Origin: an uncultured Kordia sp.
GTDB taxonomy: Bacteria > Bacteroidota > Bacteroidia > Flavobacteriales > Flavobacteriaceae
DNA length: 64,000 nt
Reading direction: 5' to 3'
NCBI RefSeq assembly: GCF_947496985.1
Contig: NZ_CANMEZ010000012.1
Span: forward strand, 62,001-126,000
Shown: positions 38,076 to 51,281 of the stretch, in pieces
Layout of the letters: every line of letters starts with the position of its first letter
How positions within the stretch are numbered: position 1 is the first letter of the stretch
Translations under genes and position numbers: made by a program
Notes under the pieces: model-generated
The model's input: only the letters and a program-made list of their open reading frames with translations
What the model was told of the DNA's origin: nothing
The model's database searches: none

Positions 38076-39671
38076 ATGAATAGTTCAAACCCATTCAAAA
38101 ACTTAAAAGCGGATTTCCCCGCAAGTATTGTCGTTTTCTTTGTCGCCCTTCCTCTCTGTTTAGGTATTGCCTTAGCCAGTGGTGCTCCATTATTTTCTGG
38201 TTTAATTGCCGGTATTATTGGAGGTATTGTTGTTGGAGCCTTTAGTGGCTCGCAAGTTGGTGTCAGTGGACCAGCAGCAGGTTTAGCTGCAATTGTATTA
38301 ACGGCTATTACAGCTTTAGGTGGTTATCAAAACTTTTTAGTTGCCGTGGTAATTGGTGGTGTAATTCAAGTTGTTTTTGGTGTTTTAAGATTTGGAATTA
38401 TAGGATATTTTTTCCCATCATCTGTAATTAAAGGAATGCTTACCGGAATTGGAATCATTATTATTTTAAAACAAATTCCACACTTCTTTGGTTACGACTC
38501 TGACCCAGAAGGAGATTTTGCTTTTGCACAAGTAGACGGACAAAATACTTTTTCAGAAATTTTTGACACTATAAACCATATTAGTCTTGGTGCTACAACA
38601 ATTGCAATAGTTGGATTGGGAATTTTAATACTTTGGAATACCGTTTTATCTAAAAAAGGAAAGATATTTCAATTAGTACAAGGTCCATTAGTTGCAGTAG
38701 CTTTAGGAATCATTTACTATATTTTAACAAAAGATAGCGAAACATTTGCTATTTCATCTGAGCATTTGGTTAAAGTACCAGTTCCTGATAGTTTTGACTC
38801 TTTTGTGGGACAGTTTAGTTTTCCAAATTTTGCTGTCATTGACAATCCTGCAATTTGGGTCACTGGTTTTACAATTGCATTAGTAGCAAGTTTAGAGACG
38901 TTATTATGTGTGGAAGCTACAGATAAGTTAGATCCATTAAAACGTGTAACACCAACAAATAAAGAATTATTAGCACAAGGAACAGGAAACATTCTTTCTG
39001 GATTAATTGGTGGATTACCAATTACACAAGTAATTGTAAGAAGTTCGGCTAACATACAATCAGGTGGAAAAACAAAAATGGCTGCTATTGTTCACGGTTT
39101 CTTATTATTGATTTCTGTGATTTTAATTCCAACATTATTAAACATGATTCCACTTTCGGTACTAGCAGCAATCTTATTAATTGTAGGATACAAACTAGCA
39201 AAACCAACACTATTTAAAAAGATGTACAACGCAGGTTGGAAACAATTTGTTCCGTTTATCATCACCATTTTAGGAATCGTATTTATTGACTTGTTATGGG
39301 GAATTGGTTTAGGATTAGCTGTTGGAATTGTAGTAATCTTAATCAAGAGTTTCCAAAATTCACACTTCTTACATATTGAAGATAAGAGTAATGGGAAGCA
39401 TAAAATTAAAATGACATTTGCCGAAGAAGTTACTTTCTTTAATAAAGGTGCTATTTTAAAAGAATTAGACAGTTTACCAAGAGATACATTCTTAGAATTG
39501 GACGTACGTAAAACACGCTTCTTGGATAATGATATTATTGAAATATTGGAAGATTTCTCAGAAAAAGCACGTAATAGAGACATTGATATTAAGTTGATTT
39601 CTGAGCGTGGAACTGTTGAAAACCCAAAAAGTTTTATTGAGTTTTTCCAACTCAGACCAAAAAGTGCCTAA
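38076..39671 (+). CDS. SulP family anion transporter (likely bicarbonate)
   Basis: The 531 residues have the SulP fold with about 12 membrane segments, opening FPASIVVFFVALPLCLGIALASGAP, with GVSGPAAGLA in TM3, and a cytoplasmic STAS domain (about 430-531). SulP proteins carry sulfate, bicarbonate or other anions. The adjacent beta-carbonic anhydrase (two genes on) argues for bicarbonate, as in BicA, coupled with sodium. The gene leads a four-gene run with spacers of 27, 53 and 2 bases. Confidence 0.92.
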   Translation: MNSSNPFKNLKADFPASIVVFFVALPLCLGIALASGAPLFSGLIAGIIGGIVVGAFSGSQVGVSGPAAGLAAIVLTAITALGGYQNFLVAVVIGGVIQVVFGVLRFGIIGYFFPSSVIKGMLTGIGIIIILKQIPHFFGYDSDPEGDFAFAQVDGQNTFSEIFDTINHISLGATTIAIVGLGILILWNTVLSKKGKIFQLVQGPLVAVALGIIYYILTKDSETFAISSEHLVKVPVPDSFDSFVGQFSFPNFAVIDNPAIWVTGFTIALVASLETLLCVEATDKLDPLKRVTPTNKELLAQGTGNILSGLIGGLPITQVIVRSSANIQSGGKTKMAAIVHGFLLLISVILIPTLLNMIPLSVLAAILLIVGYKLAKPTLFKKMYNAGWKQFVPFIITILGIVFIDLLWGIGLGLAVGIVVILIKSFQNSHFLHIEDKSNGKHKIKMTFAEEVTFFNKGAILKELDSLPRDTFLELDVRKTRFLDNDIIEILEDFSEKARNRDIDIKLISERGTVENPKSFIEFFQLRPKSA

Positions 39672-39698
39672 AAATTTTAACCATTAAAATTAAGCATC

Positions 39699-40526
39699 AT
39701 GAGCAACCCGAAGTATAAATTACTTGTTTTAACTGATCTATCTAAATCATCTACCAGAGCTTTAGATAACGCTGTAAATCTTGCAAAGATTATAGACGGA
39801 AGTATTGACGTTTTTCATGTATTAAAACCTTCGGATGTTGCTGAATACGAAAACCAATATTCAGCTATGCGAACGATTGATGAAGAACGCTACTCAACCA
39901 AACATAAGCTAAGAGCATTAGTTAGAGAGATTGCCAAGCGAGAAAATATAAAGATAAATGCAAGTTTTCGTTTGGGTCATTTAAAAAGCGAAGTACTTGA
40001 TGAAATTGAAAGTACAAAACCTGATATCATTGTATTAGGAAAACGCACAAAAAAACTCATCAACTTTTTAGGAGATAGTTTTACAAAATTCATCTTGAAA
40101 AATTTTAATGGTTCTGTATTAATTTCTGGAAAAAACACTGCTATACATACTACAGAAGAAATGTCTTTAGGTTTATTAAATACAACGACAGCAGATTTAC
40201 CGCAAGGAATTACTGCCGATTTACAACGACTTGTTAAAAATCCGATTAAGCAATTTCATGTACGTAAAGCTTCAGAAAAAAACTCTGAAAAAGCAATACC
40301 AAAAGCAGAAAACGTAATAACTTATGTATTTGAAAATAGTTCTAATGCTATGGATAATATTGCAACTTACGTCGCAAAAAACAATATTGGGATATTATGT
40401 GTGAATCAACAATCAAAAACAAATTCACGCTTCAAAAATCTTAAAACAAACATAAAAGAAGCCATTCATAAAATTAATGTACCTATTCTAATTGTAAAGA
40501 ACTCATCAACTATACAATTACAATAA
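39699..40526 (+). CDS. Universal stress protein, tandem domain
   Basis: The 275-residue protein has a clear N-terminal Usp fold (KLLVLTDLSKSSTRALDNAVNLAK, then VLGKRTKKLINFLGDSFTKFIL) and a diverged second Usp-like half ending NVPILIVKNSS. The nucleotide loop of the first half (G-2x-G-9x-G(S/T)) is not typical, so ATP binding is doubtful. Placement between SulP and carbonic anhydrase suggests it tunes the transporter, as Usp proteins often pair with carriers. That is inference. Confidence 0.87.
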   Translation: MSNPKYKLLVLTDLSKSSTRALDNAVNLAKIIDGSIDVFHVLKPSDVAEYENQYSAMRTIDEERYSTKHKLRALVREIAKRENIKINASFRLGHLKSEVLDEIESTKPDIIVLGKRTKKLINFLGDSFTKFILKNFNGSVLISGKNTAIHTTEEMSLGLLNTTTADLPQGITADLQRLVKNPIKQFHVRKASEKNSEKAIPKAENVITYVFENSSNAMDNIATYVAKNNIGILCVNQQSKTNSRFKNLKTNIKEAIHKINVPILIVKNSSTIQLQ

Positions 40527-40579
40527 TAACGGTACATAGTAATATATTAACAACAAAAAACTAGATTAAACAAAGCTAT

Positions 40580-41206
40580 ATGAAAGCACAAACAAAAGAA
40601 ACACAAGCTGTAATGACTCCAGATTCATCTTTGCAAGCATTAAAAGATGGGAATGAAAGATTTGTACAAAGTACACAAGTAAGTCGTGATTTATTAGATC
40701 AGGTTTCTGACACAAGTACAGGACAATACCCGTTTGCTACGGTATTGAGTTGTATTGATTCTAGAGTTTCTTCAGAATTAATTTTTGATCAAGGAATTGG
40801 AGATATTTTTAGTGTTCGTATTGCTGGAAACTTTGTCAATGAAGACATTTTAGGAAGCATGGAATTTGCTTGTAAATTGGCAGGAACAAAATTAGTAGTG
40901 GTCTTAGGACATACTGCCTGTGGAGCGGTAAAAGGAGCTTGCGATCATGCACGCCTTGGGAATTTAACTGCTCTAATTAACAAAATTGAACCTGCGGTAG
41001 AAGCTGTTACAGAACCAACAGATGAAAGTTTACGTAATTCAAAAAATATTGATTTCGTAAATAATGTAGCTGTTAAAAACGTAGAAATGACTATTGAAAA
41101 TATTCGCAAGCAAAGCCCTGTATTAGCAGAGCTTGAAGCTAATGGAGAAATTAAAGTTGTTGGCGGAATGTATGATATCAACAATGGTAAAGTAACGTTT
41201 TTATAG
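40580..41206 (+). CDS. Beta-class carbonic anhydrase
   Basis: The enzyme interconverts CO2 and bicarbonate in the cytoplasm. The 208-residue protein holds the zinc ligands Cys58 (SCIDSR, with Asp60), His111 and Cys114 (GHTACGAVKGAC), so it should be active. The length is typical. Lying behind a SulP transporter, it probably balances imported bicarbonate with CO2 for carboxylases and pH control. The DUF2490 gene begins 2 bases after its stop. Confidence 0.95.
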   Translation: MKAQTKETQAVMTPDSSLQALKDGNERFVQSTQVSRDLLDQVSDTSTGQYPFATVLSCIDSRVSSELIFDQGIGDIFSVRIAGNFVNEDILGSMEFACKLAGTKLVVVLGHTACGAVKGACDHARLGNLTALINKIEPAVEAVTEPTDESLRNSKNIDFVNNVAVKNVEMTIENIRKQSPVLAELEANGEIKVVGGMYDINNGKVTFL

Positions 41207-41208
41207 GA

Positions 41209-41907
41209 ATGAATTTAAAACAGAAACTAAGTATCGTTTTACTGGTACTTTGCATGATTCCGTTCGCAAGTTGGAGTCAAGATGAAACAGGTAACTGGCT
41301 CATGTATTTTGGTTCAAACCGTATTAGCGAGAAGTTCAGCATACATACTGAAGTACAATTTCGTAATCACACCGTTTTTCCAAACAATACAGAACAATGG
41401 TTATTGCGTACAGGACTAAACTATCATTTTACCAAAAATGCCTTTGCTACTGCTGGTTATGCATACATTGGAAGTTTTGTATATGATAGTGAACGTGACA
41501 GTCCAGAAACGGAAGAACATCGTATTTGGCAACAATTAATTACAAATAATAAGTTAGGACGCGTAAAATTTGAACATCGTTACAGAGCTGAACAACGTTG
41601 GGTTGAAGACGATTTTAAAACACGTTTTCGTTACCGATTAATGTTATTTATTCCTGTAAATAAACCTGTTATAGAAAAAGGAACATTTTTCTTCGGAGCG
41701 TACAATGAAATTTTTGTAAACGGACAAGAAGAACTGTTTGATAGAAATCGTTTGTATGGTGGTATTGGATATCAATTAAATAAAAATATAAACCTACAAT
41801 CAGGAATGCTATATCAACGTGTAAGCACAACTGGAAAAGGATATTTACAATTTAGTATTGTGTACAACACTGATTTACGCAAAAAACAAAAAGAAATAAA
41901 AAAATAA
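41209..41907 (+). CDS. DUF2490 outer-membrane protein
   Basis: The 232 residues start with a signal peptide (about 1-24, ending ASWSQ) and then follow an amphipathic beta pattern with WLMYFGSNRISEKFSIHTEVQFR and paired motifs such as FEHRYRAEQRW and FRYRLMLFIP. DUF2490 proteins are predicted small beta-barrels. A channel feeding the SulP module across the outer membrane is an attractive inference. Two hairpins in tandem close the transcript downstream. Confidence 0.88.
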   Translation: MNLKQKLSIVLLVLCMIPFASWSQDETGNWLMYFGSNRISEKFSIHTEVQFRNHTVFPNNTEQWLLRTGLNYHFTKNAFATAGYAYIGSFVYDSERDSPETEEHRIWQQLITNNKLGRVKFEHRYRAEQRWVEDDFKTRFRYRLMLFIPVNKPVIEKGTFFFGAYNEIFVNGQEELFDRNRLYGGIGYQLNKNINLQSGMLYQRVSTTGKGYLQFSIVYNTDLRKKQKEIKK

Positions 41908-42391: not shown

Positions 42392-42435
42392 GTAACCATT
42401 GTTACTGAGTACTTTTACAAAAAACTATAATTTTG
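42392..42435 (+). promoter_or_regulatory. GTAAC-N4-GTTAC operator and promoter of the Crp/Fnr gene
   Basis: Operator GTAAC-CATT-GTTAC at 42392-42405, and a perfect -7 box TATAATTTTG-type (TAATTTTG core TA-AT-TTTG, 42428-42435). The operator centre lies about 33 bases upstream of the box centre. Since this promoter serves the regulator itself, it points to positive autoregulation. The start codon lies further away (58 bases past the box) than in the target promoters. Confidence 0.75.
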
Positions 42436-42493
42436 GATTTTAAATACTTTCAGTATTTTTAACTCAAAATAGTGAAGCTCAAAAACGCAATTC

Positions 42494-43129
42494 ATGATTC
42501 AAGAACTAAAAGACAATTATGGTCATCTTTTTGAAGAAGATTTACTAAACGAAATTGCACAAGTTGGCACGTATAAAGAAGTTCCTGCTGGCTTTACCAT
42601 GATGTCTATTGGCGATTATGTACGTGGAATGCCATTGCTCATTTCTGGCGCTATTAAAATAATGCGAGAAGACAAAGAAGGTGATGAACTACTATTGTAT
42701 TATCTAGAAAGCGGCGAAACCTGTTCTATGACGATGAATTGCTGTATGGGACAAACCAAAAGTGAAATAAAAGCAGTTGCCGAACACGATACAAAACTGA
42801 TCATGGTTCCTGTTCAAAAAATGGAAGAATGGACCGCAAACTATAAAACATGGCGAAATTTTGTCTTTCAAAGTTATCATACACGCTTAAATGAAGTATT
42901 ACACATTCTAGACAGTGTTGCTTTTGAAAAGATGGATCAACGATTACTCAACTACCTAAAAGAGAAAGTTCGTATCAATAAAACCATGACAATTCACAAT
43001 ACACATCAAGAAATTGCCTATGATCTACACAGTTCCAGAGTAGTAATATCAAGGCTTTTAAAAAAATTAGAACAATTGGGTAGCATAGAATTGCATAGAA
43101 ATCATATTAAAATTATAAATTTAGCCTAA
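42494..43129 (+). CDS. Crp/Fnr family regulator with Cys77 and Cys83-Cys84
   Basis: The 211-residue protein has a cyclic-nucleotide-type beta-roll (about 15-120), a dimer helix and a winged helix-turn-helix (about 150-205). Within the roll, GETCSMTMNCCMG places Cys77, Cys83 and Cys84 together, which could sense persulfide or redox state. There is no FNR-type N-terminal Fe-S motif. In the recognition helix (SSRVVISRLL, 180-189) the Glu that FNR and CRP use to read the half-site is Val183, which fits an unusual operator. Its own and five neighbouring promoters carry GTAAC-N4-GTTAC. I infer it activates the sulfur genes. Confidence 0.85.
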   Translation: MIQELKDNYGHLFEEDLLNEIAQVGTYKEVPAGFTMMSIGDYVRGMPLLISGAIKIMREDKEGDELLLYYLESGETCSMTMNCCMGQTKSEIKAVAEHDTKLIMVPVQKMEEWTANYKTWRNFVFQSYHTRLNEVLHILDSVAFEKMDQRLLNYLKEKVRINKTMTIHNTHQEIAYDLHSSRVVISRLLKKLEQLGSIELHRNHIKIINLA

Positions 43130-43133
43130 ATAT

Positions 43134-43176
43134 GTAACTTTGGTTACTGCTAGCTCATTGCATGTACTGTATTTTG
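43134..43176 (+). promoter_or_regulatory. GTAAC-N4-GTTAC operator before the TauE/SafE gene
   Basis: Operator GTAAC-TTTG-GTTAC at 43134-43147. A weak -7 box ends in TTTG at 43173-43176 (GTATTTTG), at nearly the same distance as in the other copies. The ATG lies 60 bases past the operator centre. Confidence 0.72.
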
Positions 43177-43200
43177 CACTGACAAACAACGAAAATAACT

Positions 43201-43998
43201 ATGGAAATACTTGGCTATGCTAGTGCCTTGATTATTGGAATTTCATTAGGTCTTATCGGCGGCGGCGGCTCTATATTAGCAGTCCCTGTACTCGCCTATT
43301 TATTCTCAGTTGACGAAAAAGTAGCAACTGCATACTCTCTCTTTATTGTAGGTACAAGTTCACTAGTTGGAGGACTAAAACAACATCTAAATAAAAATGT
43401 TGATTGGCGTACAGCAATTGTTTTTGGAATTCCTGCCATTGTTGGCGTTACGCTAGTTCGTTACTATGTAGTTCCCGCGTTACCTGACATATTATTCACA
43501 GTAGGAACATTTGACTTTACTCGTCGTATGGGAATGTTTGGCTTGTTTGCTATACTTATGTTTCCCGCTGCATTGTCTATGCTCAAAAAACGAAAAGAAA
43601 AGGAATCTGCAGGAACTATCCGCTACAATTACCCACTTATCTTAATAGAAGGATTAGTCGTTGGTGGAGTTACCGGACTCATTGGCGCAGGTGGTGGATT
43701 CTTAATTATTCCTGCATTGGTCATATTAGCAAATATAGAGATGAAAGTTGCCGTAGGAACTTCACTTATTATCGTTGCTTTTAAATCCTTATTAGGTTTC
43801 TTTCTTGGCGATGCACAAACCATTGAGATCGATTGGCAATTCTTAGCATTATTCACAAGCATTTCATTAGTTGGAATCTTTATTGGAAGTTATTTAGGAA
43901 ACTTTATCGATGGCAAAAAACTTAAAAAGGGATTTGGCTATTTCATCTTCGTCATGGCAATTTTCATCTTCTACATGGAGTTTTTTGTAAAACAATAA
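43201..43998 (+). CDS. TauE/SafE family anion exporter
   Basis: The 265 residues show about eight membrane segments and the two inverted TauE/SafE repeats, each opening with a glycine-rich hairpin: ISLGLIGGGGSILAVPVLAY and VTGLIGAGGGFLIIPALVI. Members export sulfite, sulfoacetate or related anions. Beside a persulfide dioxygenase, which makes sulfite, export of toxic sulfite is the natural reading; staphylococcal cst operons include a tauE gene next to cstB. The gene has its own operator-bearing promoter. Confidence 0.9.
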   Translation: MEILGYASALIIGISLGLIGGGGSILAVPVLAYLFSVDEKVATAYSLFIVGTSSLVGGLKQHLNKNVDWRTAIVFGIPAIVGVTLVRYYVVPALPDILFTVGTFDFTRRMGMFGLFAILMFPAALSMLKKRKEKESAGTIRYNYPLILIEGLVVGGVTGLIGAGGGFLIIPALVILANIEMKVAVGTSLIIVAFKSLLGFFLGDAQTIEIDWQFLALFTSISLVGIFIGSYLGNFIDGKKLKKGFGYFIFVMAIFIFYMEFFVKQ

Positions 43999-44022
43999 AC
44001 ACACCAAAAAGGGAGTTGTTCT

Positions 44023-44066
44023 GTAACTCTAGTTACTGTGTATCTTTCTGTTATAACGTAATTTTA
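44023..44066 (+). promoter_or_regulatory. GTAAC-N4-GTTAC operator before the persulfide dioxygenase gene
   Basis: Operator GTAAC-TCTA-GTTAC at 44023-44036 and a near-consensus -7 box TAATTTTA at 44059-44066. The spacing equals that of the Crp/Fnr and rhodanese promoters. The ATG lies 59-60 bases past the operator centre. Confidence 0.75.
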
Positions 44067-44088
44067 TATCATATTAAAATTACATATT

Positions 44089-45495
44089 ATGAATATTGAA
44101 CAAATATATACAGGCTGTTTAGCGCAAGGCGCTTATTATATAGAAAGTAACGGCGAAGTTGCTATTATTGATCCATTACGTGAAGTACAATCTTACATTG
44201 ACAAAGCTGTAAAACAAAATGCTTCTATCAAATACATTTTTGAAACACATTTTCATGCCGATTTTGTTAGCGGACATGTAACGCTAGCCAAAAAAACAGG
44301 TGCTCCAATTGTATACGGACCTAACGCAAAACCATCTTTTGATGCTATTATTGCTGAAGACTTTCAAGAATTTCCGCTTGGAAACATAACGATTATTGCA
44401 TTGCATACGCCAGGGCATACAATGGAAAGTACAAGCTATTTATTAAGAGATGAGAATGGAAAAGATCATGCATTATTTAGTGGTGACACGTTATTTTTAG
44501 GCGATGTTGGACGACCAGATTTAGCTCAGAAAGCGGGAGAAATTACTGTAGAAGATTTAGCTAGTTATTTGTATGATAGCTTACGCGAAAAAATAATACC
44601 CTTAGCAGATGATGTGATTGTGTATCCTGCGCATGGTGCTGGTTCAGCTTGTGGTAAAAACATGATGAAAGAAACGATTGATACACTCGGAAATCAAAAG
44701 AATGTAAATTATGCATTGCGAGCAGATATGACTAAAGAAGAGTTTATCAAAGAAGTCACAGACGGATTGTTACCACCTCCAAGTTATTTTCCCGAAAATG
44801 TAAAACTTAACAAAGAAGGATACGCAGATATTTCAGACATTTTACTACGTGGAACAAGAGCATTATTACCAACAGAATTTGAAATGATCGCCAATGAAAC
44901 AAATGCTATTATTTTAGATGTTAGACATCAAAATGATTTTGTAAAAGGACACATTCCACGTTCAATTTTCATTGGGCTTAACGGAAATTTTGCTCCTTGG
45001 GTTGGTGCCTTAATTGCCGACATTCAACAACCAATTTTATTAATTACTCCACAAGGACGTGAAGAAGAAACGGTAACACGATTATCTAGAGTTGGTTTTG
45101 ATCATACACTTGGGTATTTACAAGGTGGATTTGATTCCTGGAAAAAAGCTTCTAAAGAGTATGATACCATAAGTTCGGTCACAGCCGAAAAATTCAAAGA
45201 AGATTATAACGATCATCTTCAAATATTTGATGTTCGAAAAGAAAATGAATTCAACTCAGAACATATGTTGAACGCAAAAAACACACCGTTAGATTATCTA
45301 AATAATCATTTAGCAGAATTTCCAAAAAATGACCCATTTTACGTGCATTGTGCTGGTGGATATAGAAGTGTCATTGCAGCTTCTATTCTAAAAAGTAGAG
45401 GAATTCATAACCTCATTAATGTTGAAGGTGGATTTAAAGCAATAAAAGAAACAAACATTCCTATCTCAGATTTTGTTTGCCCTTCTAGCTTATAA
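44089..45495 (+). CDS. CstB-like persulfide dioxygenase-rhodanese fusion
   Basis: The 468-residue protein joins a metallo-beta-lactamase-fold dioxygenase (1-250) to two rhodanese domains. Metal-site motifs are THFHADFVSGH (His54, His56, Asp58), HTPGHTMES and SGDTLFLGDVGRPD, as in ETHE1-type persulfide dioxygenases. The first rhodanese lacks its catalytic Cys (LLITPQGREEE at the active loop), while the second keeps it as Cys421 in HCAGGYRS. This matches staphylococcal CstB (about 444 residues), which turns low-molecular-weight persulfides plus sulfite into thiosulfate. A cytoplasmic role in clearing reactive sulfur is likely. Confidence 0.88.
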   Translation: MNIEQIYTGCLAQGAYYIESNGEVAIIDPLREVQSYIDKAVKQNASIKYIFETHFHADFVSGHVTLAKKTGAPIVYGPNAKPSFDAIIAEDFQEFPLGNITIIALHTPGHTMESTSYLLRDENGKDHALFSGDTLFLGDVGRPDLAQKAGEITVEDLASYLYDSLREKIIPLADDVIVYPAHGAGSACGKNMMKETIDTLGNQKNVNYALRADMTKEEFIKEVTDGLLPPPSYFPENVKLNKEGYADISDILLRGTRALLPTEFEMIANETNAIILDVRHQNDFVKGHIPRSIFIGLNGNFAPWVGALIADIQQPILLITPQGREEETVTRLSRVGFDHTLGYLQGGFDSWKKASKEYDTISSVTAEKFKEDYNDHLQIFDVRKENEFNSEHMLNAKNTPLDYLNNHLAEFPKNDPFYVHCAGGYRSVIAASILKSRGIHNLINVEGGFKAIKETNIPISDFVCPSSL

Positions 45496-45542
45496 TAAAT
45501 AAAAGCTTTATGAAGTTTTAGAACTTTGTAAAGCTTTGTTAT

Positions 45543-45586
45543 GTAACTAAAGTTACTGCGTCTAAATCAACAACAATCTATTTTTG
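45543..45586 (+). promoter_or_regulatory. GTAAC-N4-GTTAC operator before the rhodanese gene
   Basis: Operator GTAAC-TAAA-GTTAC at 45543-45556 and a perfect -7 box TATTTTTG at 45579-45586. The four-base spacer TAAA and flanks are the same as in the YeeE/YedE promoter (50243). Confidence 0.78.
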
Positions 45587-45608
45587 TATTAAAATAAACC
45601 TAAAACAT

Positions 45609-45953
45609 ATGTCTTTCATAAATGCGCTATTTGGCAAAAAAGAAACGCCTTCAGATCATATAGAAATTCTAGATTCTACAACATTTAAAGAAGCTATTAC
45701 TGCTAAAAAAGTACAATTAGTGGACGTTAGAACTAGTTTAGAATATAAAAGCGGACATATTGAAAATGCTGTTAATATTGATTTTTTTGACCGTGCACAT
45801 TTTAATGAAAATTTTGCAGGATTTAATAAAGAACAACCTATCTATTTATATTGTCGTTCGGGAAATAGGAGCCAACGAACTGCCAAAAAATTACTTCAAA
45901 TCGGTTTTAAGAAAATCTATGATTTGAAAGGTGGCTACAAAGCTTGGAAGTAA
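45609..45953 (+). CDS. Single-domain rhodanese
   Basis: The 114-residue protein is one rhodanese domain: VQLVDVRTSLEYKSGHIENAVN near the start and the active loop YCRSGNRS with Cys82. It should carry sulfane sulfur as a Cys-persulfide and hand it to acceptors such as thiols or the CstB-like dioxygenase. It has no signal peptide, though an N-terminal 20-residue segment (MSFINALFGKKETP) precedes the domain. It is transcribed from its own operator promoter and closed by a hairpin shared with the gene at 46023. Confidence 0.92.
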   Translation: MSFINALFGKKETPSDHIEILDSTTFKEAITAKKVQLVDVRTSLEYKSGHIENAVNIDFFDRAHFNENFAGFNKEQPIYLYCRSGNRSQRTAKKLLQIGFKKIYDLKGGYKAWK

Positions 45954-45975
45954 TAAAAAATTTGTTTTAAAATAA

Positions 45976-46007
45976 AAAGCGACTCAAGTTTTAACTCGAA
46001 TCGCTTT
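45976..46007. terminator. Bidirectional hairpin between rhodanese and DUF1330 genes
   Basis: Arms AAAGCGA and TCGCTTT continue inward through G-U-tolerant pairs (GACTCAAGTT against AACTCGAATC), making a long stem. T-rich sequence follows on both sides. Confidence 0.85.
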
Positions 46008-46022
46008 AATTTTATGCGTTAT

Positions 46023-46316
46023 CTATTCACTAATATAAGCTTCCAATTTTGAAAAAGCTTTATCACGGTATGGAATTAATTCTTGATATGCAGCACTTTC
46101 AAAAACATCATGTAATGCATTCATATCAGGAAACTCCATAATGGAAACTATAGTAGGTGTATAAGTACCGATTAATGGTTTTGACACTTTAAATTTATTG
46201 ACTGACTTAGCTTGTACTTTCTTATAAAGATCACCTACTTTTTCAATATAATGTGCTAATTGTTCTTTTCCTTCCGGATTAACTGTTGCAACGATTGTTA
46301 CATGTACTTTACTCAT
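46023..46316 (-). CDS. DUF1330 family protein
   Basis: The 97 residues form a ferredoxin-like dimeric alpha-beta barrel fold: VHVTIVATVNPEGKEQLAHY opens it and IVSIMEFPDMNALHDVFES and AYQELIPYRDKA complete the typical DUF1330 pattern. Function is unknown; relatives are small cytoplasmic proteins often under HxlR or other stress regulators. It lies 174 bases downstream of the HxlR gene on the same strand, so control by it is plausible. Confidence 0.82.
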   Translation of the reverse strand: MSKVHVTIVATVNPEGKEQLAHYIEKVGDLYKKVQAKSVNKFKVSKPLIGTYTPTIVSIMEFPDMNALHDVFESAAYQELIPYRDKAFSKLEAYISE

Positions 46317-46490
46317 TATTTTATTTTTAATTGTTTAACTATTTTGTATTACCCATAGCGTTATCATATAATTTGAAATAGAATTTTTTCTAGATAGTAA
46401 AAGTGTTTTTACTTTCTACCATTCCATTAATTTCTTTAATAGAAAACTATTGCAATTCTTTAACTTCAACTGGGTTATTGAAATTATATG

Positions 46491-46826
46491 TTATACAGCT
46501 GTTTCAAAATTTTTAGCCCATACTCTAGCCCAAGATTCTAAAGGCTCAAGGAGTTCAAAAATTTCTTTTCCTTTAGCAGTTAATGCATATCCTTCAACTG
46601 TTCTTTCTATCAAAAAAGCTTGAGTTAACTCTTTTAATCTTCTATTAAGTGTTGTTGGTGAGATAGATTCACATCTTTCTTGAAGCACTCTAAACGTACA
46701 AGAACCTTCTTGTAACCTCCAAATGATTCCCATAGCCCAACTTCTTCCTAATAAATCAAAAAGAGCCATTAAATGGTTTCCTGACTTTGATCCTCGTACT
46801 GGTTTTCCTGGAATTGGTAATGACAT
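46491..46826 (-). CDS. HxlR family transcriptional regulator
   Basis: The 111-residue protein is a winged helix-turn-helix of the HxlR/MarR-like class: LLGRSWAMGIIWRLQEGSCTFRVLQERCESISPTTLNRRLKEL then the wing VERTVEGYALTAKG. Cys43 and Cys53 flank the DNA-binding helices and might sense oxidants or electrophiles, as in HypR and YodB-type members. A 13-base inverted repeat flanks its own -7 box (46836-46878), implying autorepression. Target genes may include the DUF1330 gene next to it. Confidence 0.88.
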   Translation of the reverse strand: MSLPIPGKPVRGSKSGNHLMALFDLLGRSWAMGIIWRLQEGSCTFRVLQERCESISPTTLNRRLKELTQAFLIERTVEGYALTAKGKEIFELLEPLESWARVWAKNFETAV

Positions 46827-46835
46827 AAAATTATA

Positions 46836-46878
46836 TTTGCTACATTTTCGATAGCAAAGCTACACAAAATGTAGCAAA
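46836..46878 (-). promoter_or_regulatory. Inverted-repeat operator around the -7 box of the HxlR gene
   Basis: Perfect 13-base half-sites TTTGCTACATTTT (46836-46848) and AAAATGTAGCAAA (46866-46878) are 17 bases apart. Between them, at 46855-46862, the minus strand reads TAGCTTTG, a perfect -7 box. A protein bound across both halves would block polymerase, which suggests autorepression by HxlR. Confidence 0.75.
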
Positions 46879-46957
46879 CTACAAATAAAAATAAAGTCTG
46901 TTTATTTAAAAAGAGCGAAACAAACATTTCAAAACACTAAATATCAATAACTTGAAT

Positions 46958-47554
46958 TTATTTTTTCAACACCAACGTCGTCATACTTCGTAAATCGTTT
47001 ACATTGGTGCTTTTTACATGTTCTAATAATGAAAGTTGATGTGTTGAAAGTATTTCGTTCAATAATTTACGCGTCAATAAAAAACGTTTGGATTCATCAG
47101 GCAAAAAATATACGCCATCTTGTACGTGTGTTGGTTTTCCTTCAATACCAATATCAGAAGTCATCCGTATAAATAAACTTCCTCCTTGCTTTAGTACACG
47201 TACCAATTCTGCAAACATATCTTTAAAATGTGTTTCGCTTTGCGCGAAATGTAACACGGCATTACATAAAATATGATCAAAAGTAGCATTTGTATATGGT
47301 AACTTTTCTAATGTGGCAACTTGAAAATTAGCAGAAAGTTTAGGATAGCGTTTTTGAAGATGCGCTATATGTTCAGTATTTATATCAATTGCATAAAAAG
47401 TAAAACCACTCTCGTGGAAATAATGCAAATTTCGACCACTTCCACAACCTGCATCTAAAATGACATCATTTTCTTGATAGCGACCTTTTAAAATTTGATC
47501 AATTAAATAAATATCTGCATTTCCTGAAATTTCGGTCAATACGTGTTGTTTCAT
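46958..47554 (-). CDS. Class I SAM-dependent methyltransferase
   Basis: The 198-residue protein has the Rossmann-like fold with motif I DAGCGSGRNLHYF (SAM-binding), motif II near YAIDINTEHI and the segment DHILCNAVLHFAQSE. The general layout resembles TehB/UbiE-type small-molecule methyltransferases. The substrate is not clear; near sulfur genes a thiol, selenium or tellurium species could be considered but nothing in the sequence decides it. It is transcribed divergently from cydA. An inverted repeat around its -7 box points to tight control. Confidence 0.85.
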   Translation of the reverse strand: MKQHVLTEISGNADIYLIDQILKGRYQENDVILDAGCGSGRNLHYFHESGFTFYAIDINTEHIAHLQKRYPKLSANFQVATLEKLPYTNATFDHILCNAVLHFAQSETHFKDMFAELVRVLKQGGSLFIRMTSDIGIEGKPTHVQDGVYFLPDESKRFLLTRKLLNEILSTHQLSLLEHVKSTNVNDLRSMTTLVLKK

Positions 47555-47583
47555 TCGTTAAAATTTTGAACCAAGATATCATT

Positions 47584-47620
47584 TTTATACCGACAAAAAT
47601 AATTCCTTTAGCGGTATAAA
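47584..47620 (-). promoter_or_regulatory. Inverted repeat around the -7 box of the methyltransferase gene
   Basis: Perfect 9-base half-sites TTTATACCG (47584-47592) and CGGTATAAA (47612-47620) are 19 bases apart. Between them the minus strand carries TATTTTTG (47594-47601), a perfect -7 box. The half-site differs from that of the HxlR promoter, so another regulator is expected. Confidence 0.65.
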
Positions 47621-47712
47621 TATTTCTCAAAAAAGCAGTCTTTATCTGTTAGAATTCACTATTTTATATAGTATAATATACATAAAAAATAATTCTTAAA
47701 AAAACGTTTTAT

Positions 47713-47757
47713 GTAACCTTAATCACCTCTTTTTTTGAGCTTTGTACTGTATCTTTG
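47713..47757 (+). promoter_or_regulatory. Imperfect GTAAC-N4-GTTAC operator and promoter of cydAB
   Basis: The left half GTAAC (47713-47717) is exact, but the right half is ATCAC (47722-47726). The -7 box TATCTTTG (47750-47757) is perfect, and spacing to the box and to the ATG at 47778 (58-59 bases) fits the other copies. So the site looks real but weaker. Confidence 0.65.
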
Positions 47758-47777
47758 TTATATCAAAACACTTCGTT

Positions 47778-49163
47778 ATGGATACAGAAATTCTCGCTCG
47801 AATCCAATTTGCTTTCACTATTGCCTTTCACTACATTTATCCTCCTTTAAGTATCGGCCTAGGACTTTTAATGGTCATTTTTGAAAGCGCATATATGCGT
47901 ACTAAAAACAAACAATATCATATTCTTGCTAAATTCTGGACAAAAATATTTGCGCTTACATTCGGAATTGGTGTCGTAACTGGAATTGTTATGGAATTCG
48001 AATTTGGAACCAATTGGGCTGTCTATTCACGCTATGTTGGTGATGTATTTGGAAGTGCGCTTGCTGCAGAAGGAATTTTTGCATTTGCTCTAGAAAGTGG
48101 ATTTTTAGGAGTCTTATTATTTGGCTGGAATCGTGTAAAACCTTGGGTACATTTGGTTTCTACGATTGGCGTTTTTCTAGGCTCTATGTTTTCTGCCGTT
48201 TGGATTGTAGTTGCAAACAGTTGGCAACAAACACCTGCAGGGTATCATATAGTTGGGGAAGGAATCAACGCACGTGCCGAAATCACCGATTTTTGGGCAA
48301 TGGTATTCAATCCTTCAAGCGTAGATAGAATACTGCATGTGTGGCTTGGTGCTTTATTGGCTGGTGCGTTTTTAGTGTTGAGCGTACATGCTTATTATAT
48401 TGTTAAAAATCGTTTTGTAAACATTTCAAAACGTGCTTTTAAAATTGCTTTGGCAGTTGCAGCTATTTTTTCATTAGCGCAATTAGCTACAGGACATAGC
48501 TCAGCCGAAGGCGTTGCCGTGAATCAACCTGCAAAATTAGCAGCTATGGAAGGACACTTTCCTGCAAGTGCTTCCGCTGATATGTATTTGTTTGGTTGGG
48601 TTGATAAAGAATCACAAGAAGTAACTGGTTTGAAAATTCCTGGCGGGCTTTCGTTTTTATTACATTATGATTTTGAAACACCCGTAACTGGTTTAAATGC
48701 TTTTCCTGAAGAAGACAGACCTGGGCAAATTAATGCTGTGTTTCAGTTTTATCACATTATGATCGCTATTGGAATGTTACTGATTGTTTTATCATTATAC
48801 GGCATGTTTTTATGGTGGAAAGGAAAACTTTTTAAGAAAAAATGGGTTTTATGGACATTTGTATTTGCCGCTATATTACCACAAATTGCAAATCAAACAG
48901 GTTGGTTTGCTGCCGAAATGGGAAGACAACCTTGGGTGGTTTATGGACATTTACGAACCAATCAGGCATTCTCACAAGCTGTCACAGATAATCAGATATT
49001 GTTCTCGTTAATTCTGTTTTTGATCGTATACACGTTGCTGTTTTTACTCTTTATCTATTTATTAAATAAAAAAATTCAACATGGACCGTATGAAACATCA
49101 GAAGACGAACATAGTGATAGACCGCATACCAAAGAAATTACACAAATAGTAACTGGAAATTAA
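47778..49163 (+). CDS. cydA: Cytochrome bd ubiquinol oxidase subunit I
   Basis: CydA carries haems b558, b595 and d and oxidises quinol to reduce O2 to water at the membrane. I take the ATG at 47778; a TTG at 47742 sits inside the promoter. The 461 residues are shorter than in E. coli (522) because the quinol loop is of the short type: [12 protein letters not shown] keeps the conserved Lys and Glu. The first His haem ligand is in IAFHYIYPP (His18) and GRQPW is present near residue 380. bd oxidases resist sulfide poisoning, which fits the sulfur genes around it. Confidence 0.96.
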
Positions 49164-49169
49164 AAACGT

Positions 49170-50207
49170 ATGGAAACTTTTTTAGGCTTAGATTATCCCA
49201 CATGGTGGTTTTTAGTAATTGGCGGATTATTCTCTGGATATGCGATTTTAGATGGTTTCGATTTTGGAGCTGGTGCTTGGCATTTGTTTTTCAAAAAAGA
49301 TCATAGTAGACGTATTGCCATGAACGCCGTTGGTCCAGTTTGGGATGGAAACGAAGTTTGGCTGGTGATTGGTGGCGGTGCTTTATTTGCTGGTTTCCCT
49401 GTGATGTATGCAACGTTTTTCTCAGGAATGTATATTCCATTTATGCTATTTTTAGTCTTTCTTATATTAAGAGGAATTTCTATTGAAGTTCGCGGAAAAG
49501 AAGAATGGCCTTGGTGGCGAAACATGTTTGATATTATTTATAGTGTTTCTAGTATTATGCTTGCATTTTTACTAGGAGTTGTACTAGGAAATGTATTGCA
49601 AGGCATTGCTATTGGTGAAAATTATCAATATCAGGGCGCTGGTTTTTTTGAGTTTTTAAATCCATATTCGCTACTTACTGGTTTTACAACGTTGTTTTTA
49701 TTCATGACACATGGCGCTATTTATTTATTACTAAAAACAGAAGGACGATTGTTTGCAAAACTGACACTTCTCATGAAAAAAGGAATGATCCTGTTTATGG
49801 TGTTTTTCGGAATCACAACCATGTATACATTATTATATATTCCACACTTGTCAGATGATTTTAAAGCAAATCCAATCTTATTTTTAGCACCATTAATTAC
49901 ATTTTTAGCAATTGCCAATGTTCCGCGTTTAGCTAACAAAAAAAGATACAGATTAGCTTTTATTTTTTCATCTTTAACTATTGCTTCTATGCTTGTTTTG
50001 GTAGCAATAGAATTGTATCCTACTTTACTATTTTCAACAGTAGATCCTCAATATCATATTGATATTTATAATGCAGCTTCTTCTGAAGGTTCAATGGAAA
50101 ACATGTTGATTATTGTTGCCATTGGAACACCATTAGTACTTGGATACACTTATTTTGTATACCGTACATTTAGAGGAAAAGTACAATTGGATGAAACGAG
50201 TTATTGA
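49170..50207 (+). CDS. cydB: Cytochrome bd ubiquinol oxidase subunit II
   Basis: CydB is the partner membrane subunit of CydA. The 345-residue protein has eight to nine predicted helices and the family opening YPTWWFLVIGGLFSGYAILDGFDFGAG, with VGPVWDGNEVWLV following. It begins 6 bases after the cydA stop, so the two are one operon. No short CydX-like frame is visible in the 99 bases downstream, where the next operator is found instead. Confidence 0.96.
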   Translation: METFLGLDYPTWWFLVIGGLFSGYAILDGFDFGAGAWHLFFKKDHSRRIAMNAVGPVWDGNEVWLVIGGGALFAGFPVMYATFFSGMYIPFMLFLVFLILRGISIEVRGKEEWPWWRNMFDIIYSVSSIMLAFLLGVVLGNVLQGIAIGENYQYQGAGFFEFLNPYSLLTGFTTLFLFMTHGAIYLLLKTEGRLFAKLTLLMKKGMILFMVFFGITTMYTLLYIPHLSDDFKANPILFLAPLITFLAIANVPRLANKKRYRLAFIFSSLTIASMLVLVAIELYPTLLFSTVDPQYHIDIYNAASSEGSMENMLIIVAIGTPLVLGYTYFVYRTFRGKVQLDETSY

Positions 50208-50242
50208 TTAAAACATACTTCTTAACTACTTTTTAATGCTCT

Positions 50243-50286
50243 GTAACTAAAGTTACTTTCCACATCATATGATTTTCTTTTTTTTG
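50243..50286 (+). promoter_or_regulatory. GTAAC-N4-GTTAC operator before the YeeE/YedE pair
   Basis: Operator GTAAC-TAAA-GTTAC at 50243-50256. A poor -7 box ends in TTTG at 50283-50286, at the common spacing. The weak box and strong operator suggest full dependence on the activator. Confidence 0.75.
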
Positions 50287-50306: not shown

Positions 50307-50864
50307 ATGGATTGGATATATGAACCGTGGCCTTGGTATGTTTCTGGTTTTATGATTGCATTGATTATGGTTTTATTAATCATGGTTGGAAAAAACTTTG
50401 GAATATCTGGAAACCTAAGAACGATTTGTAGTATTTGTGGAGGTGGAAATAAAGCTGATTTTTTTCGATTTGACTGGAAAACACAACGTTGGAATTTAGT
50501 GGTTGTGTTCGGTGCAATTATTGGTGGATTTATTGCAAATCAATTTTTAACGATTGATACTTCCGTTGCTATAGATCCTAAAACTATTGACAATTTGCAA
50601 CAATTAGGATTTGAAAATGCAGGCAACACATATATGCCTGAAAAATTATTTTCTACAGCAGTATTTTCAGATATAAAAAATCTTTCTCTTTTAATCATTG
50701 GCGGTTTTTTTGTTGGTTTTGGTTCACGTTATGCTGGTGGTTGTACTTCAGGACATGCTATTTCTGGACTAAGTAATTTACAACTTCCATCTTTGATCGC
50801 TGTAATTGGCTTCTTTATTGGCGGCTTAGTTATGATACATTTAATTTTCCCTTTACTTTTTTAA
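50307..50864 (+). CDS. YeeE/YedE family transporter, N-terminal half
   Basis: The 185 residues have about four membrane segments with a conserved cysteine loop GGCTSGHAISGLS, the signature of YeeE/YedE (TsuA-type) channels that take up thiosulfate or sulfur species. A second Cys pair (CSICGGGNKADFF, about 43-50) lies in the loop after the first helix. The family is often split into two proteins, as in PmpA/PmpB; the partner follows 3 bases later. The gene has its own operator promoter. Confidence 0.9.
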   Translation: MDWIYEPWPWYVSGFMIALIMVLLIMVGKNFGISGNLRTICSICGGGNKADFFRFDWKTQRWNLVVVFGAIIGGFIANQFLTIDTSVAIDPKTIDNLQQLGFENAGNTYMPEKLFSTAVFSDIKNLSLLIIGGFFVGFGSRYAGGCTSGHAISGLSNLQLPSLIAVIGFFIGGLVMIHLIFPLLF

Positions 50865-50867
50865 ACT

Positions 50868-51281
50868 ATGAGAACTCTTATTTATTTACTGATTGGAATT
50901 GTATTCGGAATAACCATGTTTAAATCGGAAGCAGCTTCTTGGTATCGTATTTATGAAATGTTCCGATTTGATTCATTTCATATGTACGGAATTATAGGAA
51001 CTTCTTTATTTTTTGGCGTCATCGTTACTCAACTCATAAAACGTTTTCAAATAAAATCATTTTATGGTGAATTTATAAAGTTTCCTCCGAAACAAAAAAG
51101 TTTTGCTCGTTATGCTTTTGGAGGAATCCTATTTGGACTTGGCTGGGCTTTAGCTGGCGCTTGTCCTGGACCAATGTTTACTTTAGTTGGCGCAGGATTT
51201 TCACCTATTATCATTACGATTCTAGCAGCATTGCTAGGAACTTTCGTCTATGGTTTATTAAAAGATAAGTTACCACATTGA
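50868..51281 (+). CDS. YeeE/YedE family transporter, C-terminal half (DUF6691)
   Basis: The 137-residue protein has four membrane segments and the second family signature GWALAGACPGPMFTLVGAG, in which the Cys faces the pore in TsuA. Together with the previous protein it makes a full two-repeat channel. Thiosulfate import would supply the reverse of the CstB reaction, and export of sulfur species cannot be excluded. No terminator is obvious before the separate promoter at 51313. Confidence 0.9.
   Translation: MRTLIYLLIGIVFGITMFKSEAASWYRIYEMFRFDSFHMYGIIGTSLFFGVIVTQLIKRFQIKSFYGEFIKFPPKQKSFARYAFGGILFGLGWALAGACPGPMFTLVGAGFSPIIITILAALLGTFVYGLLKDKLPH

Follow-up and report, generated by a model that had tools for sequence, protein, structure and literature searches.

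The window analysed here, a stretch of 64,000 nucleotides (64 kb) from an uncultured Kordia sp. of the Flavobacteriaceae (contig NZ_CANMEZ010000012.1, positions 62,001 to 126,000), contains a gene cluster for a Crp/Fnr protein and for sulfur handling whose promoters carry a common operator-like dyad, GTAAC-N4-GTTAC. The features listed in this paragraph lie on the plus strand. The regulator gene (42494..43129, 211 amino acids) encodes a protein with Pfam HTH_Crp_2 and cNMP_binding matches over cut-off, the cysteines Cys77, Cys83 and Cys84 and the recognition helix SRVVISR, and its own promoter carries the dyad GTAACCATTGTTAC (42392..42405) and the -7 box TAATTTTG, with TTTG at 33.5 bases. A TauE/SafE-family exporter gene (43201..43998, 265 amino acids; PF01925, E 8e-40) follows behind the dyad GTAACTTTGGTTAC (43134..43147). 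Next come a fusion of metallo-beta-lactamase (MBL), rhodanese and rhodanese domains (44089..45495, 468 amino acids; profile matches, full-length matches to PDB entries 3tp9 and 3r2u) behind GTAACTCTAGTTAC (44023..44036) and a single-domain rhodanese (45609..45953, 114 amino acids; PF00581, E 2.9e-24) behind GTAACTAAAGTTAC (45543..45556). The genes of cytochrome bd subunits I and II, cydA (47778..49163; PF01654, E 9e-162) and cydB (49170..50207; TIGR00203 over its cut-off), are preceded by the imperfect dyad GTAACCTTAATCAC (47713..47726, two mismatches) and a perfect -7 box TATCTTTG at 34.5 bases. Finally, the dyad GTAACTAAAGTTAC recurs (50243..50256) in the promoter of the two halves of a YeeE/YedE-type sulfur transporter (50307..50864, 185 amino acids; PF04143, E 1.1e-17; and 50868..51281, 137 amino acids, DUF6691; PF20398 and PF04143).

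Rescanning the window placed the five exact dyads and the imperfect site at 47713 exactly where they had been reported. Measured from the dyad centre, the -7 TTTG or TTTA has its first T at 33.5 bases for the sites at 42392, 44023, 45543 and 50243, at 32.5 for 43134 and at 34.5 for 47713, which reproduces the reported range of 32.5-34.5. The start codon lies 95.5 bases past the centre for the Crp gene and 60.5 (43134), 59.5 (44023), 59.5 (45543), 58.5 (47713; cydA ATG at 47778) and 57.5 (50243) for the others, that is, 57.5-60.5 in the five promoters for which 57-61 had been given. The box deviates from TAnnTTTG at three sites: at 43134 it reads GTATTTTG and is one base short, and the sites at 44023 and 50243 have TAATTTTA and TTTTTTTG, respectively. 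Fewer than one exact dyad per window had been expected by chance; the expectation computed from base composition is 0.065 compared with five found (Poisson P(≥5) ~9e-9). Dyads with up to two mismatches are barely above chance (37 versus 24.6 expected). The spacer TAAA is common to the dyads at 45543 and 50243, and the other spacers and the flanks vary between sites.

The dyad recurs around orthologues of the regulator. Our first locus set comprised 80 stretches of up to ~20 kb from 76 genomes, some on short contigs, hand-selected across the identity range among the regulator matches listed; one stretch without a Crp open reading frame (ORF) was dropped. In the remaining 79 loci (1.51 Mb) we found 180 exact dyads, whereas 119 other dyads composed of these letters or of the complementary ones occurred at most 11 times (median 1) and the same half-sites with spacers of 0-3 or 5-11 bases 0-4 times. 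Although intergenic sequence makes up 11% of the bases, 172 of the 180 dyads lie between ORFs; seven of the 79 loci have no exact dyad. Among all 5-base dyads with spacers of 2-8 in the intergenic sequence of 97 loci whose regulator has Val183, GTAAC-N4 ranks first, with 164 occurrences in 70 loci. In another set, of 80 named loci searched separately, there were 236 dyads versus 8 for one control dyad; the named and family locus sets overlap, with some genomes in both.

Promoter geometry was determined on 158 sites with one clear downstream start, taken from 185 (the 180 plus the five of the window) after 27 had been dropped because no start lay nearby, a divergent start made the assignment ambiguous or the flank was too short. 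The columns 29.5-36.5 bases past the centre give the consensus TAnnTTTG (T 0.90, A 0.88, T 0.96, T 0.97, T 0.85, G 0.63). A perfect TAnnTTTG stands at 32.5-34.5 bases in 83 of the 158 sites, in 76 of them at 33.5, and the 70 bases downstream contain only two perfect boxes at other distances. From dyad to box the sequence shows no more than a weak TG right behind the dyad, and there is no clear -33 element outside it. The start codon lies ~50-66 bases from the centre in 119 of the 168 sites with a start within 200 bases. Counting from a box placed at -7, the centre of the dyad comes to lie near -40 to -41. In class II activation, as for CRP, the operator is centred near -41 and overlaps the -35/-33 region, and with 76 of the 85 perfect boxes at 33.5 the predicted class II position appears well founded.

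Dyad promoters and the protein occur together. We counted as a relative any match to the regulator at E ≤ 1e-30 and as a dyad-plus-box site an exact dyad with a perfect box at 20-24 bases. Relatives are present in 164 of 199 Flavobacteriaceae genomes, 15 of the genomes without a match being assigned by elimination rather than from the match listing. These 199 genomes hold 290 dyad-plus-box sites compared with 20 for the reversed pattern, and the sites are found in 133 of 198 genera of the family. Of the genomes with a relative, 132/164 have such a site, versus 2/35 without one; this contrast is not free of shared ancestry and is partly non-independent because the family genomes are related. 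Both exceptions are incomplete genomes (G147, 73%; G088, 87%). The protein-less genomes tend to be small, yet none of the eight with at least 2.5 Mb and at least 94% completeness has a site. The phylum sample (247 genomes) includes 96 genomes with a relative and 27 with dyad-plus-box sites (50 sites versus 12 reversed), and 23 of these 27 have a relative. Among the distant loci inspected, an exact dyad lies between ORFs close to the protein in one locus each from six other families, and in three of these loci at least two sulfur gene families are found nearby. In family f11, genomes G418 and G426 hold two and one dyad-plus-box sites, respectively, with no relative at E ≤ 1e-30.

Within the window's own genome (5.48 Mb) the exact dyad occurs ten times, compared with 5.6 expected from base composition and 17 for the reversed pattern. 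Five of the ten belong to the window cluster; of the others, four fall within ORFs that are long and the fifth adjoins an FNR-like gene, and outside the cluster the dyad is at chance level. There is no genome-wide enrichment; the signal is the clustering at promoters. The outcome named beforehand as speaking against a regulon, a motif frequent across the genome with no link to promoters or sulfur genes, was not what the genome scan found. A DUF983-like gene of this genome, at C1:9258, has GTGACAAAAGTTAC and a perfect box upstream and is likely a seventh target. The dyad beside the FNR-like gene (C1:445707-445720) is flanked on its other side by a CcoI-type ATPase gene, both genes being named by eye, and is followed at the correct spacing by a near -7 box. 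Genome G179 retains 9 of its 10 bases, and at the corresponding site G085 and G141, both without the window regulator, have no dyad within two mismatches.

The regulator belongs to the Crp/Fnr superfamily: PF00027 and PF13545 score over cut-off and cover a beta-roll plus HTH_Crp, and all 50 matches listed by Foldseek for its AF2 model (pLDDT 87, pTM 0.60) are Crp/Fnr-type proteins by title (3dv8, E 1.2e-14). It is 94% identical to its Kordia algicida counterpart. Cys77 is conserved in 80/80 orthologues and Cys83 and Cys84 in 79/80 each, as are Arg182, Val183, Val184, Ser186 and Arg187 of the recognition helix in 80/80. All three cysteines fall within the segment aligned to the phosphate-binding cassette of CRP. 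The fold and the class II placement are as in E. coli CRP; the residues contacting cyclic AMP (cAMP) are replaced, Met79 aligning with CRP Glu72 and Val135/Leu136 (profile Leu/Leu) with CRP 127/128. Wild-type CRP has Thr-Ser at 127/128, and the aligned chain 4bh9 itself has Leu-Ile there. Because these contacts are replaced, binding of cAMP appears unlikely; the score against the NCBIfam CRP model is 47 bits versus a cut-off of 266. Nor does the protein have the N-terminal cysteine cluster that holds the 4Fe-4S centre of FNR, as there is no cysteine before residue 77. In PDB 3dv8 (EUBREC_1222), the places of Cys77 and Cys83 are cysteines and that of Cys84 is Ile.

When the set is widened to 118 loci, Cys77 is found in 118/118, which is no more than suggestive of a reaction with persulfide through this cysteine; the complete trio is found in 96. 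Three loci of a sister group with Cys77 only (CGG type) share the helix RVV and are surrounded by three or four of the sulfur gene families, and one of the three has an exact dyad. At helix residue 183, the dyad accompanies Val in 82 of 97 loci versus Glu in 1 of 21. We examined this residue as a determinant of the operator, but with only four changes on a quick tree the association cannot reach significance. In the 21 Glu183 loci no alternative dyad was found, the top dyads being A/T runs; in two loci of one genus (g128) the regulator is a diverged copy that has Glu183, and an exact dyad is absent. The window's genome also encodes a second Crp/Fnr paralogue (C6, L292:9519-10142) with cysteines at the places of Cys77 and Cys84 (CSC) and the helix AREVISR; its 20-kb locus contains no exact dyad and no sulfur gene families nearby.

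The genes behind the dyads give the regulon its character. Expressed as genes with an exact dyad up to 200 bases upstream, in the named set and the family set respectively, the ratios are 46/76 and 46/73 for MBL-rhodanese, 35/46 and 30/46 for TauE, 13/18 and 13/15 for SQR-like, 14/26 and 11/26 for YeeE, 14/52 and 11/36 for rhodanese, 10/14 and 7/13 for peroxiredoxin, 7/9 and 5/5 for SorA-like, 4/5 and 8/8 for TolC, 13/21 and 5/5 for DUF983, 7/25 and 5/18 for SulP, 14/85 and 10/81 for Crp itself and 5/11 and 2/13 for cydA. Low ratios arise in part because genes lie inside operons, and the high ones of SQR, SorA, TolC, peroxiredoxin, SulP, DUF983 and others are partly circular because the representatives of these families were picked from the genes behind dyads. 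SQR-like and SorA-like genes match their NCBIfam models below the curated cut-off; TolC, MFP, peroxiredoxin, SulP, DUF983, HMA, thioredoxin and aldehyde dehydrogenase-like genes were named by eye. In part of the relatives, dyads stand upstream of the Crp gene or of a DUF983-Crp pair. For cydA of the same subfamily (76-78% identity) an exact or one-mismatch dyad is present in four of four other loci, and a cydA of 73% identity has none. The functions expected of a sulfide/persulfide regulon, namely persulfide dioxygenase, rhodanese, SQR and sulfite/thiosulfate transport, are linked here through operator placement only.

Away from the regulator we inspected 43 sites in 40 stretches, hand-picked among the dyad-plus-box sites listed. 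Twenty-six of them precede the same gene families, including 12 TolC genes, the commonest target there, and in linked loci TolC is often followed by MFP and RND genes, which suggests that a sulfur compound or a sulfur-stress product is exported. The remaining 17 sites stand before genes for six small secreted proteins, for several small proteins, thioredoxin-like or other, and for a cytochrome that matches SoxA weakly, before one aldehyde dehydrogenase-like gene and before some nameless genes. The six small proteins have 83-125 amino acids and conserved cysteines, in most cases an N-terminal hydrophobic stretch and in five an ending like SPPPRLA; the single one scanned (that of L213) gave no NCBIfam match.

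Ahead of the regulator, at 38076-41907 of the window, lie genes for a SulP-like transporter (by eye), a universal stress protein, a carbonic anhydrase and a DUF2490 protein with no exact dyads; the order of SulP, carbonic anhydrase and DUF2490 is the same in Kordia algicida. Between the rhodanese gene and cydAB, at 46023-47554, are three minus-strand genes (a 97-amino-acid protein, an HxlR-like regulator by eye and a methyltransferase). The Kordia algicida locus has one ORF between rhodanese and YeeE, and no cydA match appeared there.

Among the known systems, the nearest in target class are the regulons of CstR, BigR/SqrR and FisR, which share persulfide dioxygenase-rhodanese, rhodanese, TauE and SQR. 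Those regulators are CsoR-, ArsR- and sigma54-type proteins; here, in contrast, a Crp/Fnr protein, a probable class II activator, has cysteines in the former cAMP site. Cysteine-based sensing is likely a further shared feature. The fusion protein resembles S. aureus CstB in its MBL-rhodanese-rhodanese architecture, with a match to 3r2u, which we take to be that CstB, over query residues 3-453 (E 1.5e-58), and we infer that it is of the persulfide dioxygenase-sulfurtransferase type. Its second rhodanese domain retains the cysteine (HCAGGYRS), and the first has TPQGREEE at that place. In contrast to CstB, the gene stands behind the dyad promoter and not behind a CstR operator. In the open-access literature we found neither a Crp/Fnr protein described as controlling this gene set nor one described as a persulfide sensor, nor a Bacteroidota regulator of sulfide detoxification of this type, and to our knowledge persulfide sensing has so far come only from CsoR, ArsR, MarR-type and sigma54 regulators. 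This sulfide/persulfide regulon is probably run by a regulator family different from the known ones.

The operator, its spacing, the gene set, the co-occurrence with the protein and the cysteine conservation are computed observations. Starting from them, we consider it likely that the Crp/Fnr protein is the thiol-sensing master class II activator of a regulon for sulfide and sulfane-sulfur handling; the predicted sulfur regulon of a Crp/Fnr protein is borne out insofar as comparative genomics ties the dyad to this protein, to a fixed-spacing promoter and to sulfur genes. Direct binding, activation rather than repression and persulfide as the signal are what we infer beyond this. With Cys77, Cys83 and Cys84 in the lost cAMP site, the regulator is probably a reactive-sulfur sensor. 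Persulfide or polysulfide, as the most likely signal, would modify or bridge these cysteines, reacting with Cys77 and, in this clade, forming a bridge to Cys83 or Cys84. The modification would alter the C-helix and the DNA-binding state, so that the dimer could activate class II promoters. It would bind GTAAC-N4-GTTAC centred ~40-41 bases ahead of the transcription start, replace the -33 element of the Bacteroidota promoter and recruit polymerase to the TAnnTTTG -7 box. In this way the protein would turn on the gene that encodes it, together with genes for the oxidation, transfer, detoxification or export of persulfide, sulfite and thiosulfate, and would also bring in a sulfide-tolerant cytochrome bd oxidase.

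Several observations weigh against this proposal. No dyad with a perfect box was found in 32 of the 164 family genomes with a relative and in 73 of the 96 phylum genomes with one, and four phylum genomes (G307, G382, G418, G426) have dyad-plus-box sites and no relative at the threshold used. In the family set, 27 of the 73 MBL-rhodanese genes have no dyad within 200 bases. A search of the whole window genome for a type III SQR gave no clear match, only a partial one of 31%. Residue 183 goes with the dyad, but switches only four times on a quick tree. The CGG type, in 10 of the 118 loci, comprises distant relatives with the same helix and in some cases the dyad; as these keep only Cys77, Cys83 and Cys84 are not needed for use of the dyad.

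The strongest rival is a different thiol-reactive signal: the same protein would read the same regulon, but its cysteines would sense another cue, for example oxidants, electrophiles, copper or some other metal, and the response, sulfur genes included, would be one to thiol stress. Several targets fit such a response, namely peroxiredoxin, thioredoxins, TolC-MFP-RND export, an HMA protein and cytochrome bd, and the cysteine trio could bind a metal. However, peroxiredoxin and thioredoxin are equally compatible with persulfide handling, and the most widespread targets (MBL-rhodanese, TauE, SQR-like, SorA-like, YeeE) point to persulfide, sulfite and thiosulfate, so that we regard this explanation as unlikely. 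The protein might also be a repressor that keeps the promoters shut at the dyad and is released by sulfur species. Repression is indeed how several of the known persulfide regulators act (CstR, BigR/SqrR), but a repressor does not require such fixed spacing, and the constant centre at about -40 to -41 with no clear -33 element outside the dyad fits class II activation; repression appears quite improbable.

Two other readings concern the identity of the protein that uses the dyad. An FNR-like protein encoded beside the CcoI-type ATPase gene could read it as an oxygen response, as one genomic dyad adjoins that gene and is largely kept in G179, and cydAB is a usual FNR target. An FNR-like protein is, however, present in four (G033, G050, G085, G141) of the eight larger, at least 94% complete genomes without the window protein, and none of these eight has a dyad-plus-box site. 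The FNR-like protein is therefore not the reader, and we rejected this hardly credible candidate. As for HcpR2, a Crp/Fnr-family regulator of nitrosative stress, PMC1274295 gives its operator consensus as GTAACnnnnGTTAC, identical to the dyad found here. The motif is therefore not new, only the gene set is. That paper defines HcpR2 by hcp genes and describes its regulons in most Bacteroides and several others as hcp only, whereas here sulfur genes are served. HcpR2 was compared by operator and gene set. PF03063 (hcp) was found in 0/12 dyad-bearing genomes versus 5/14 control genomes in the same search; on this absence an HcpR2 function was rejected, and we hold it to be very improbable. Lastly, the promoter repeats could be due to chance or shared ancestry and have no regulatory meaning. 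Neighbouring promoters might stem from duplication, and two of them share the TAAA spacer; yet spacers and flanks mostly differ, the dyad recurs across the family genera before many unrelated genes, and dyad plus box tracks the presence of the protein. A chance origin was rejected on the enrichment over dyads of equal composition, the fixed box spacing and this co-occurrence, which leaves such an explanation a negligible probability.

In conclusion, we lean towards the view that a Crp/Fnr lineage whose cAMP pocket has turned into a cysteine sensor of persulfide or polysulfide acts as a general master activator of sulfide detoxification and sulfane-sulfur oxidation throughout the Flavobacteriaceae and also in further families and orders of Bacteroidota. 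Few heterotrophs are as common on algae and in sediments as marine flavobacteria, and in the open-access literature we found no description of how they sense sulfide or reactive sulfur. The regulon described here supplies a regulator, an exact operator, a promoter geometry and a target list. Its operators would place TolC-MFP-RND export operons, DUF983 proteins and small secreted proteins with SPPPR-like tails in sulfur stress. If the cysteines sense persulfide, the protein would represent a Crp/Fnr solution to a task otherwise met in other regulator families.

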